Source: Pseudomonadota bacterium
GTDB lineage: Bacteria > Pseudomonadota > Gammaproteobacteria > Burkholderiales > Rhodocyclaceae
Assembly (NCBI GenBank): GCA_018241725.1
Contig: JAFEDI010000128.1
Span: 1-64,000, forward strand
Length of the DNA: 64,000 bases
Reading direction: 5' to 3'
Each line of letters starts with the position of its first letter. The first letter of the stretch is position 1. A program made the position numbers and the translations under genes. The notes under the pieces are model-generated. The model was not told the origin of the DNA and searched no databases. It was given only the letters and a program-made list of their open reading frames with translations. This document shows positions 17,175 to 20,573 of the stretch, piece by piece.

Positions 17175-18956
17175 ATGAGCCTCGTAGAAGTCAAGGTTCC
17201 GGACATCGGCGATTTCTCCGACGTCCCGGTCATCGAGCTGTTCGTGAAGGTCGGCGACACCATCAAGGTGGACGACGCCATCGCCACCCTCGAATCCGAC
17301 AAGGCCACGATGGACGTCCCGTCCTCCGCCGCCGGCGTGATCAAGGAAGTCCGCGTCGCCCTGGGTGACCGGGTCGGCGAAGGCAAGGTGCTGATCGTCG
17401 TCGAAGCCGACGGCGCTGGCGCCAGCCCGGCTCCTGCGGCCGCCGCAGCACCGGCTCCGGCCGCCGCGCCCGCTGCAGCTGCGGTGGCCGCCCCGGCCGC
17501 TGCCAGCCACGCCGGCGCGGCCGACGTGGAGTACGACTTGGTCGTCCTCGGCGCCGGTCCCGGCGGTTATTCCGCCGCCTTCCGCGCTGCCGACCTGGGC
17601 CTCAAGACCGCCATCATCGAGCGCTACGCCACCCTCGGCGGCGTGTGCCTGAACGTCGGCTGCATCCCGTCCAAGGCCCTGCTGCACGTGGCGGCGGTCA
17701 TCGAGGAGGCCGAGCACGCCTCCGTCGCTGGCGTCAGCTTCGCCAAGCCCTCCGTCGATGTGGACGCCCTGCGCGCCCACAAGGACAAGGTTGTCGGCAA
17801 GCTCACCGGTGGTCTGGCCGGCATGGCCAAGGGCCGCAAGGTGGACGTGATCCGCGGTTACGGCAGCTTCCTCGACCCGAACCACATCGAAGTCGAGGAA
17901 ACCACCGGCGGTGCCCAGGACAAGACCGGCGCCAAGAAGGTCGTGAAGTTCAAGCAGTGCATCATCGCCGCCGGCTCCGCCGCGGTGCACCTGCCCTTCA
18001 TCCCGCGCGATCCGCGCATCGTGGACTCCACCGGCGCCCTTGAGCTGCGCTTCGTGCCGAAGAAGATGCTGGTCATCGGCGGCGGCATCATCGGCCTGGA
18101 AATGGCCACCGTCTATTCGACCCTCGGCGCCCGCGTCGATGTGGTGGAAATGATGGACGGCCTGATGCAAGGCCCGGACCGCGACGCCGTCAAGGTGTGG
18201 GAAAAGCAGAACGCCAGCCGCTTCGACAAGATCATGCTGAAGACCAAGACGGTCGCCGTGGATGCCAGGGAAGACGGCCTCTACGTCACGTTTGAAGGCG
18301 AAGGTGCCCCCACCGAGCCGGTCAAGTACGACATGATCCTGCAGTCCGCCGGTCGTGCCCCCAACGGCAAGAAGATCGGCGCCGACAAGGCAGGCGTGAT
18401 CGTCACCGACCGCGGCTTCATCCCGGTGGATGCGCAGATGCGTACCAACGTGCCGAACATCTTCGCCATCGGTGACGTCGTCGGCCAGCCCATGCTCGCC
18501 CACAAGGCGGTGCATGAAGCCCACGTCGCAGCGGAAGTCGCTGCCGGCCACAAGGCCGCCTTCGACGCCACCGTGATCCCGGGCGTGGCCTACACCCATC
18601 CGGAAGTGGCATGGGTCGGCTACACCGAGGCCCAGGCCAAGGCCGAAGGCAAGAAGGTCGAGACCGCCAAGTTCCCGTGGGCCGCCAGCGGCCGCGCGAT
18701 CGCCAACGGTGCCGACTACGGCTTCACCAAGCTGATCTTCGACGCTGAGACCCACCGGGTCATCGGCGGCACCATCGTCGGGCCGTCCGCCGGCGACATG
18801 ATCGGCGAAGTGTGCCTGGCCATCGAGATGGGCGCCGACGCGGTCGACATCGGCAAGACCATCCACCCGCACCCGACCCTTGGCGAAACCGTCGGCATGG
18901 CCGCGGAAGTCGCCCACGGCAGCTGCACCGACGTGCCGCCTGCCCGCAAGAAGTAA
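17175..18956 (+). CDS. lpdA: Dihydrolipoamide dehydrogenase (PDH E3) with N-terminal lipoyl domain
   Basis: 593 aa, about 120 longer than plain E3 because of an N-terminal lipoyl domain (Lys43) and an Ala/Pro linker. The FAD-binding motif GAGPGGY starts near residue 126. The redox disulfide is Cys158/Cys163 (GGVCLNVGCIPSK), the NAD site is GGGIIGLEMATV, and the catalytic pair is His566/Glu571 (HPTLGE). It reoxidises the lipoyl groups of E2 using NAD. E3 with a lipoyl arm occurs in several betaproteobacterial and neisserial PDH operons. An AAGGAGAT site precedes the ATG. Confidence 0.97.
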   Translation: MSLVEVKVPDIGDFSDVPVIELFVKVGDTIKVDDAIATLESDKATMDVPSSAAGVIKEVRVALGDRVGEGKVLIVVEADGAGASPAPAAAAAPAPAAAPAAAAVAAPAAASHAGAADVEYDLVVLGAGPGGYSAAFRAADLGLKTAIIERYATLGGVCLNVGCIPSKALLHVAAVIEEAEHASVAGVSFAKPSVDVDALRAHKDKVVGKLTGGLAGMAKGRKVDVIRGYGSFLDPNHIEVEETTGGAQDKTGAKKVVKFKQCIIAAGSAAVHLPFIPRDPRIVDSTGALELRFVPKKMLVIGGGIIGLEMATVYSTLGARVDVVEMMDGLMQGPDRDAVKVWEKQNASRFDKIMLKTKTVAVDAREDGLYVTFEGEGAPTEPVKYDMILQSAGRAPNGKKIGADKAGVIVTDRGFIPVDAQMRTNVPNIFAIGDVVGQPMLAHKAVHEAHVAAEVAAGHKAAFDATVIPGVAYTHPEVAWVGYTEAQAKAEGKKVETAKFPWAASGRAIANGADYGFTKLIFDAETHRVIGGTIVGPSAGDMIGEVCLAIEMGADAVDIGKTIHPHPTLGETVGMAAEVAHGSCTDVPPARKK

Positions 18957-18994
18957 AACGCCCAACGTTCCGATCCCTGTTGCAGCGTTGTTTT

Positions 18995-19021
18995 GGCGGC
19001 CCTCGTGGCCGCCATTTTTTT
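18995..19021 (+). terminator. Intrinsic terminator of the pyruvate dehydrogenase operon
   Basis: GGCGGCC (18995-19001) pairs with GGCCGCC (19007-19013) across a 5-base loop, then A and seven T. It lies 38 bases after the lpdA stop. Confidence 0.92.
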
Positions 19022-19052
19022 GCCTGTTTCCGGGACCTTGATCCGCCGACCT

Positions 19053-19409
19053 GAACATTCGCAGCGCGGGCATGAACCCGCGTGGCCCTGATTGGAACCC
19101 GGGCAGCCGGGACTGGAACATTCGCCCCGTAAACCTGAAGTATCCGAGCCCCGCGTTGAAGAAGTTCCGCCCGGCGTTGAAATGTCGCCCCGGCGATGTG
19201 AACATGAAGCACGCGGACTTGAACCATCGCGGCTCCGCCTTGAACTCACTCCCCCTGGAGCTGAACTTTCGCGCCGGCGACCTGAACTCGAGAGGTGCGG
19301 ATCGGAACGATCGACGCACCGACCTGAACCCGCGCCCCCCGGATGTGAACCGGCGCCCATCCGGGATGAAGCCGTTCAACCCGGATGGGAACATTCGCAG
19401 CCCGGCGCC
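19053..19409. repeat. Degenerate tandem array: 17 units of exactly 21 bp, each starting GAA
   Basis: The triplet GAA occurs at 19053 and then every 21 bases to 19389 without exception (17 of 17). Over the units, base 4 is C in 13, base 7 is T or G in 16, bases 8-10 favour CGC, base 13 is C in 15, base 17 is G in 16, base 18 is A in 11 and base 21 is usually T or G; other columns vary freely. Read rightward it would encode heptapeptides like LN-R--D; read leftward, heptads with F and often R-S. Frames on both strands stay open, but none has a good ribosome site and a TGA at 19039-19041 closes the rightward heptad frame just upstream. It fills the gap between the lpdA terminator and the DHOD-like gene. 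Function unknown. Confidence 0.85.
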
Positions 19410-19435
19410 CAGTGGGGTCACAGCGGAGCCCCGCA

Positions 19436-19474
19436 CGCCTGGCCGCGGGAGACGGGGGTTCAAACGGCCAGGCG
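19436..19474. terminator. 10-bp stem-loop between the 21-bp array and the DHOD-like gene
   Basis: CGCCTGGCCG (19436-19445) is perfectly complementary to CGGCCAGGCG (19465-19474) around 19 bases. It lies about 85 bases past the end of the leftward DHOD-like gene and could stop that transcript before it enters the array. There is no T run, so an intrinsic terminator is not proved; it may be a boundary hairpin of the array. Confidence 0.4.
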
Positions 19475-19559
19475 CCGGGTTCGACGCGCAGCCGGACTAT
19501 TTCCGAACCCAACACCGCGCACTGATCCCGGCGCTACGCCTGTTTGACGCGCCGCCCGC

Positions 19560-20573
19560 TCAGCGCCACACGCCGCTGCGCGGCGTGAAGCTGTCCAGCA
19601 CCTTGATGTAGCTGCGCCGGGCCACCGCGTCCGGATCACTCAGATTGGACTGGCACATGCTGCCTTTCAGCTGCGCGATGGAGTGGTATTCCCGCTCGGC
19701 CATCCAGGCCTCCATGTCCCGCAGAATCAGACTCAGGCGCTCGGAACCATGGCTCAGCAGGCAGGACGCCAGGTGCACCACGTCGGCACCGGCCAGCAGC
19801 AACTTGAGGGCCTCGTCGGCACTGTGCACGCCGCCGGTGGCGGCCAGCGTCATCTGCGTCTGGGCCCGCAGGATGGCGATCCAGCGGATACGCAGCAGGG
19901 CTTCCTCCCGGCTGGACAGGTGTAGTTGATCCACCATGCGCAGGCTGTCCAGGTCGATATCCGGCTGGAAGAAACGGTTGAACAGCGCCACGCCACTCGC
20001 TCCGACCAGTTCCAGGCGTCGCACGAAATGCGGCAGTGACGAGAAGAACGGCGACAGCTTCATCACCACCGGAATCTTCACTACGCTGCGCAGTTCCGCC
20101 AGCAAGGCCACGTAACGCGCCTCGACGGAATCCCCGCTCTCGGCCGGGTCCGCCGCCACGTGATAGACGTTGAGTTCCAGCGCATCGGCACCGGCCTCCT
20201 GCAAGGCCAGGCCGAGATCCACCCACCCGGACGGCGTCACCCCGTTGAGGCTGGCAACGACCGGGATGGACAGGCGCTGTTTGACTCGCCGCAGATGCTC
20301 CAGATAACGCTCCAGCGCGCCCTGGAACTCACCATGGTCAGGCAGGAAGCCGGACGACTCGCCGTCGTGGAAATCGGCGTGCAGCAGGAAGCGGTCGGTC
20401 ATCGCGTCCTCGGCGAGGATCTCCTCCTCGTAGAGGGAATGCAGCACCACCGCTGCCGCGCCGGCGTCCTCCAGGCGCAGCAGCGAATCGAGCTGCTTCG
20501 ATAAAGGCGAAGCGGACGGCACCAGCGGGTTCTTCAGCGTGAGGCCGAGGTATTCGGTAGTCAGATCGATCAT
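19560..20573 (-). CDS. Dihydroorotate-dehydrogenase-like FMN protein
   Basis: 337 aa TIM-barrel of the DHOD/PreA family. The N-terminus MIDLTTEYLGLTLKNPLVPS, the segment VVASLNGVTPSGW, ALELNVYHV, the VVMKLSPFFSS strand and the C-terminal phosphate-binding ATGGVHSADEAL fit FMN binding. It is not the biosynthetic PyrD: the order of motifs matches the DHOD-like group that I recall lying beside nifJ in other anaerobic or facultative bacteria. It follows nifJ by 15 bases on the same strand, so it probably works with pyruvate:ferredoxin oxidoreductase, possibly in electron transfer. The substrate is unknown. Confidence 0.85.
   Translation of the reverse strand: MIDLTTEYLGLTLKNPLVPSASPLSKQLDSLLRLEDAGAAAVVLHSLYEEEILAEDAMTDRFLLHADFHDGESSGFLPDHGEFQGALERYLEHLRRVKQRLSIPVVASLNGVTPSGWVDLGLALQEAGADALELNVYHVAADPAESGDSVEARYVALLAELRSVVKIPVVMKLSPFFSSLPHFVRRLELVGASGVALFNRFFQPDIDLDSLRMVDQLHLSSREEALLRIRWIAILRAQTQMTLAATGGVHSADEALKLLLAGADVVHLASCLLSHGSERLSLILRDMEAWMAEREYHSIAQLKGSMCQSNLSDPDAVARRSYIKVLDSFTPRSGVWR

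Follow-up and report, generated by a model that had tools for sequence, protein, structure and literature searches.

A 21-bp GAA array of Zoogloea as a possible solo copy from a dispersed array family linked to a small helical protein

Arrays of units on a 21-bp lattice adjoin genes of a small protein family, here called X, in Zoogloea, in the gammaproteobacterial family of genome G053 and in Verrucomicrobiota. We analysed one array that stands apart from X, within a stretch of 64,000 nucleotides of a Zoogloea genome (contig JAFEDI010000128.1 of assembly GCA_018241725.1, positions 1 to 64,000; hereafter the window). We give about an even chance to the view that this array is a solo copy from a dispersed, gene-linked array family, with X and an array of 21-bp DNA sites as parent cassette. 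A broader proposal, made tentatively and at somewhat less than an even chance, is that X and the arrays form an unrecognised two-part bacterial genetic system. In such a system a new protein family would read helically phased, lineage-specific DNA sites and assemble on one face, solo arrays would spread between genes, and new pairs of X and core would arise repeatedly within single genomes. Solo arrays were found mainly in X-bearing genomes.

The window array, its site and its relatives

The array occupies positions 19053..19409 (no strand assigned) and consists of 17 units of exactly 21 bp, which corresponds to two turns of B-DNA. A sequence-only reading of this DNA had placed GAA at 19053 and then every 21 bases up to 19389, which was borne out in 17/17 units. 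The conserved columns it had listed were recovered likewise: C at base 4 in 13/17 units, C, G and C at columns 8, 9 and 10 in 12/17 each, C at column 13 in 15/17 and G at column 17 in 16/17. Mean pairwise identity among units is 0.53 and the self-match at lag 21 is 0.50. When spacings of 4 to 120 bp were scanned, this was the longest run of an identical trinucleotide in the window (17), the best runs starting elsewhere reaching 5, and from GAA frequency alone the expected number of such GAA runs is about 1e-24. The 21-column profile score was 46.1; 300 random 650-bp stretches of the window reached 33.8 at most, with 32.2 as the 99th percentile. The array shows no dyad symmetry (p 0.85), and TBLASTN detected no X gene in the 64-kb window.

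To the left lies lpd (17175..18956, plus strand), encoding a dihydrolipoamide dehydrogenase with lipoyl domain (Pfam Pyr_redox_2, Pyr_redox_dim and Biotin_lipoyl). An inverted repeat followed by a T run (18995..19021, plus strand), read from the sequence and kept in three relatives, forms the lpd operon terminator. Sub-threshold Rfam matches in this region (18941-19020), to SorX (E 0.01), RyhB and MicA, probably reflect merely a hairpin with a T run. The right neighbour is a convergent dihydroorotate-dehydrogenase-like gene (DHODH-like; 19560..20573, minus strand; Pfam DHO_dh). Alignment of the flanks showed that the region from the terminator to this gene (19042..19559, no strand assigned), which comprises the array and about 150 bp to its right, is entirely different in three close relatives. 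In these relatives, G006, G014 and G013, the left flanks are 97-98% identical and both flanking genes are present, and the array is absent; 72, 98 and 263 bp, respectively, separate the aligned flanks versus 508-528 bp in the window. The window array has either been gained here or repeatedly lost, and comparison of the window with the three relatives revealed no clear target duplication at the site. The intergenic site between lpd and the DHODH-like gene is a repeat-collecting spot. At the same site G013 (locus L093) has a run of TTGGGC hexamers instead of the array, as well as two GGGCGAAT(G)AATTCGCCC-like palindromes in inverted orientation that resemble REP elements.

A screen of an 84,980-species collection with the class-A unit pattern identified seven matching stretches, five from Zoogloea and two from a single Chthoniobacteraceae MAG. 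When the window's own genome was searched for a GAA lattice, six GAA spaced 21 bp apart, 57 matches on both strands were obtained versus one for the reversed control. These matches fall at 11 places. One (C4) is an exact tandem repeat and the other ten are degenerate arrays, so that nine degenerate 21-bp GAA arrays exist besides that of the window. Two classes were distinguished: class A, with GAAC cores (C31, which is the window array, C64, C92, C110, C116 and C128), and class B, with the core CGAAnnTTCG (C6, C29, C113 and C148). The GAA lattice occurs in 15 of 23 Zoogloea genomes, several of which also match the reversed control because other 21-bp arrays contain AAG. The sequence-only reading had suggested searching related genomes for further arrays and their gene context, and had considered a one-off expansion. 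Arrays were indeed found, accompanied by protein family X, and since kindred arrays also exist at other places of this genome and in further genomes of Zoogloea, the expansion is not a one-off.

Scored against profiles of X-linked arrays, the window array fits those of C128 (z 8.5) and C4 (z 6.4) and not those of C29 (z 1.5) and C144 (z -0.8), and it was therefore taken to be a solo array of the C128/C4 group. Among class-B arrays from separate loci, other species included, the units align one by one and the end sequences are shared; in that alignment the copy at L075 is missing exactly one 21-bp unit. L063 and L073 are 81.5% identical over 200 bp, and X adjoins L073 only; a 154-bp block of ordered units is common to the window and an array of G013. 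As judged from these alignments, whole arrays or array blocks appear to be copied between loci. According to a crude gene caller, gaps between convergent genes hold 5/7 classifiable solo arrays of the window's genome and 7/18 of all solo arrays examined, versus 3/20 of the gaps in the window. Two side observations concern repeats. An exact 21-bp tandem repeat with GAA, in contrast to the degenerate arrays (L070:3956-4081, G000 contig C4:71955), shares its contig with an X gene at a distance of about 6 kb. A second type of dispersed repeat, about 290-320 bp long and 86-93% alike between copies, recurs in the vicinity of one class-A array and several class-B arrays (L061:4807-5122, L074, L076, L078 and L079).

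Protein X and the arrays beside it

Cross-comparison of array loci yielded a conserved block beside several arrays, which encodes X, a protein of about 155 aa. TBLASTN identified X relatives adjoining class-A arrays L068, L071, L073 and L085, class-B arrays L062 and L080, and both Chthoniobacteraceae arrays (L124 and L127), the latter with about 27% identity to Zoogloea X. By profile search, 15 of the 23 Zoogloea genomes contain X, with up to 13 matches per genome. X further occurs in at least 112 of 395 genomes and at least 26 of 54 genera of the gammaproteobacterial family of G053, in 6/288 Verrucomicrobiota genomes, in 8/199 genomes of the window's family and in 2/398 Pseudomonadota, the window's genome included.

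Searched against Pfam and NCBIfam, X gave no match above curated cut-offs, and matches to PHROGs and PADLOC were at noise level only. Among 31 X proteins no transposase family was matched in Pfam at E values up to 0.5, nor in NCBIfam and PADLOC; one X matched a transposase family of PHROGs at E 0.18 and one of the 31 a Cas3 model at E 0.031, both noise level. An AlphaFold model based on 31 sequences (mean pLDDT 88) is all-helical without any strand, and its comparison with PDB structures returned nothing usable. The proteins are mildly acidic overall, with net charges of -9 to 0 in the 31 sequences and a basic tail in most, and are without a known DNA-binding fold.

The loci examined for linkage represent part of the X matches in Zoogloea and, in the family of G053, loci among the matches listed. 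From 92 X matches, we removed those below 100 bits, those followed by fewer than 200 bases of sequence and duplicate entries for one locus, and added three G053 matches. This resulted in 75 distinct X genes: 69 from Zoogloea, three from gammaproteobacterium G053, two from Chthoniobacteraceae and one from Thiodictyon. When periods of 13 to 40 were tested over 650 bp downstream, the best period was 21 for 64/75 genes, 22 for four and another value for seven, Thiodictyon X being among the 11 with a best period other than 21. Upon exclusion of scores below 32 and of near-duplicates, 58 arrays with period 21 were retained; two arrays scored above 32 at period 22. For 38 additional X rows, five of which overlap the 75, a 21-bp array was found downstream in 12, upstream in 13 and on neither side in 13, at a score cut of 35 that was set after seeing the scores and without a random control for those genomes; among the 12 with a downstream array, L229 has a best period of 14. 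The array is often upstream of X in the family of G053. Linkage of X and array is general and variable in side; universal it is not. Some loci contain other repeats. Downstream of X at L211 (G053) the 21-bp array is broken by longer palindromes (TTTTCCATnnnnnnnnATGGAAAA) at lattice intervals, L154 and L177 have a separate period-22 array about 490 bp downstream of X (self-match 0.65-0.66), and a 43-bp period was seen at X loci L178, L172, L180 and L168.

Cores differ among X paralogs on an unchanged 21-bp lattice. Examples are GCCTAAnnnTTAGGC interspersed with GAGGGTn7ACCCTC (L194), ACCCTCCGGAGGGT (L195), CTGCTCGCGAGCAG (L167), GCTCAGnnnnCTGAGC (L179) and GGTCAAnnTTGACC (L220). Dyad symmetry exceeded that after column permutation (p<0.05) in 40 of the 58 X-linked arrays. 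The X-linked relatives of the window array (L068, L071, L144 and L158) share its lack of dyad symmetry, and a simple dimer site therefore does not describe this group. X identity and array similarity correlate with r 0.222, the largest value of 500 permutations being 0.173 (56 of the 58 arrays, two from G053 left out; kinship ignored). The correlation derives mostly from close pairs and falls to r 0.112 below 70% identity; in 44/56 cases the array of the nearest X relative ranks in the top three by similarity. Linkage by itself could produce such co-variation of X and core.

Presence of X and of solo arrays was compared across Zoogloea. GAA lattices were found in 14/15 X-bearing versus 1/8 X-less genomes (Fisher p 2.5e-4, uncorrected for phylogeny and completeness). 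The X-less exception, G021, has two lattice matches versus three for the control, lattice matches in some X-bearing genomes are single or equal to the control (G001, G008), and G002 has ten X matches and zero GAA lattices. The class-B core has 19, 15 and 16 forward matches in G000, G013 and G014, where X-linked arrays include this core; it has two in G006, one in G003 and none in the other 18 genomes. The GCCTnA core occurs in G004, G005, G009 and G018, all X-bearing. In G004 and G005 an X of the matching clade adjoins a GCCTnA array and further such arrays lie elsewhere, and G009 and G018 have the core and no X more than 60% identical to that clade. G002, G003, G008 and G017 have a matching-clade X without the core, which is thus present in 2/6 genomes with such an X. 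This distribution weakens the idea of one X for one core.

Selection on the arrays and rival explanations

Five ortholog pairs were compared, four of class B (two of which share the C29 array) and one of class A. None of the five showed an indel column. Class-B cores had 12 changes in 288 positions versus 94 in 468 for other array positions (p 7e-11; four pairs), that is about five times fewer. Relative to the flanks, the substitution rate of the arrays was lower in three of the five pairs, roughly the same in a fourth and slightly higher in the fifth. The sequence-only reading had offered a phased protein-binding array, a structured RNA or a fast-evolving heptad-repeat protein. The phased DNA array is now favoured, given the lack of indels, the core constraint, the dyad cores in 40/58 arrays and the position of arrays on either side of X; that a protein binds there would be a further step. 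Coding is disfavoured by stops and by the lack of synonymous excess.

That the window array encodes a heptapeptide-repeat protein, as its period divisible by three and a 179-aa ORF open over 19072-19611 might suggest, seems most improbable, since each single frame is interrupted by a stop in at least 7/17 class-A arrays. The Chthoniobacteraceae array L124 moreover contains a 20-bp unit. The codon-level comparison of homologous arrays that had been recommended showed no synonymous excess in any frame of the class-B orthologs, where most codon differences alter the amino acid whichever of the six frames is read; the class-A pair, with 7 changes only, has too few to decide on codon changes. The best frame of the 58 X-linked arrays, with 10 stops versus 18.1 after column shuffling and an open frame in 50 versus 45.0, is not fully explained and would speak for coding, as would ORFs called by a crude coding score over arrays L081 and L083. 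The earlier argument from synonymous codons is weak, as conceded at the time, with AAC:AAT at 74:11 and TTC:TTT at 134:6 in five confident genes. A tandem repeat that expanded by slippage, is neutral and is now in decay would account for the low unit similarity (mean 0.53), the three relatives without the array and the C29 array, where substitution is no lower than in the flanks. It is hard to reconcile with five ortholog pairs free of indel columns, with the core constraint and with the same period recurring with many cores beside one protein family, and we hold it to be very unlikely.

Arrays could act as RNA, in the form of tandem hairpins transcribed with or near X and either bound by X or regulating it. 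Some cores, for instance GCCTAAnnnTTAGGC, permit hairpins, unit-level pairing exceeds shuffling at L200 (z 5.0) and has z >2 in 8/58 arrays, and the window array folds somewhat better than its shuffles (z -2.5 on the minus strand, -1.8 on the plus strand). G-T mispairs do not, however, prevail in a way that indicates a general strand preference (415 versus 373 A-C mispairs in the 58 X-linked arrays); arrays lie on both possible sides of X, the class-B core hairpin would have a loop of two bases only, and hairpins do not need exact 21-base spacing. An RNA role therefore appears unlikely. Less easily dismissed, and still improbable in our estimate, are arrays that are chiefly mobile selfish DNA without host function, copied to intergenic sites by X or by an X-steered host enzyme, as has been proposed for RAYTs and REPINs. 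This would agree with the presence or absence of the window array between close relatives, with whole arrays or blocks shared by unrelated loci, with the numerous X copies per genome and with the share of solo arrays in convergent-gene gaps (5/7 in the own genome and 7/18 overall versus 3/20 window gaps). X is, however, unlike any transposase family in Pfam, NCBIfam, PHROGs and PADLOC, the window site is without clear target duplication, and the selection seen on unit cores of orthologous arrays suggests that an array has some role once it has arrived.

In our best reading the arrays would act at the DNA level and be kept and spread together with X, in an organisation like that of REPIN-RAYT with an unrelated protein. 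The parent cassette would comprise the gene of a small, all-helical X and adjacent units on an exact 21-bp lattice. Units would be double-stranded DNA sites, occupied side by side on one helix face by X alone or with a partner, and solo arrays would be copies of cassette arrays, mostly kept between genes as extra sites in trans. Of these steps, support is better for units that are DNA sites as opposed to RNA or protein, and weakest for the inferred direct binding by X.

Comparison with known systems

A CRISPR array was considered and rejected: units share a partial core only and are not near-identical repeats with unrelated spacers, and the sole Cas3 match is at noise level. In type III toxin-antitoxin systems (ToxIN), a repeat RNA lies upstream of a ToxN/AbiQ-type toxin. 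X is a protein of similar size beside a tandem repeat array, but it has no family match in Pfam or PADLOC, where the ToxN/AbiQ-type family was absent among X matches at E values up to 0.5 and up to 1, respectively; its arrays lie on either side, often downstream, also occur without X and lack an RNA strand preference. In type II plasmid partition (ParR-parC), the gene of a small ribbon-helix-helix DNA-binding protein, with a motor NTPase gene adjacent, stands beside tandem sites about 10 or 20 bp long that follow one another along the helix, and the X gene likewise adjoins a tandem array. Apparent differences are that the X model is all-helical and X gave no ribbon-helix-helix match, that a genome can have as many as 13 X matches, and that solo arrays lie on chromosomal contigs.

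The 21-bp arrays are tandem, dyad-symmetric in most X-linked cases, patchy across distant taxa and spread within genomes. PARCELs share these features, being tandem repeats with dyad symmetry that are patchy in distant taxa and spread within genomes, and encode 25-residue protein repeats (PMC2996958). Here the unit is 21 bp and the array is not conserved as coding sequence, with stops and, in class B, no synonymous excess.

The closest organisational likeness that we see is to REPIN-RAYT. RAYTs belong to the HUH tyrosine transposases of the IS200/IS605 kind and REPs function as single strands in folded form; REP and TnpAREP ('REPtrons') pair a small protein gene with its own adjoining kind of repeat (PMC3116915, PMC8266576). 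X and its arrays resemble them also in related intergenic repeats elsewhere, in several gene-repeat pairs with different motifs and in signs of co-evolution. They differ in that X matches no HUH tyrosine transposase and X-linked arrays have at least seven units on an exact 21-bp lattice; arrays with GAA cores number about 10 copies per genome, not hundreds. As to folding into single-strand hairpins, X-linked arrays show no strand preference and weak covariation. Without a transposase-family match for X, the X-array system is not a member of REPIN-RAYT. The open-access full-text literature, with subscription journals and preprints outside this scope, contained no description of it. X-array pairs measure only about 155 aa and 200-350 bp, a small size that makes the question directly testable. 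If the proposal is true, a gene family with its own phased DNA array, present in at least two phyla and diversified into many gene-core pairs within one genome, would offer a natural set in which to study the joint change of a protein and its DNA sites, and an independent counterpart of REPIN-RAYT.
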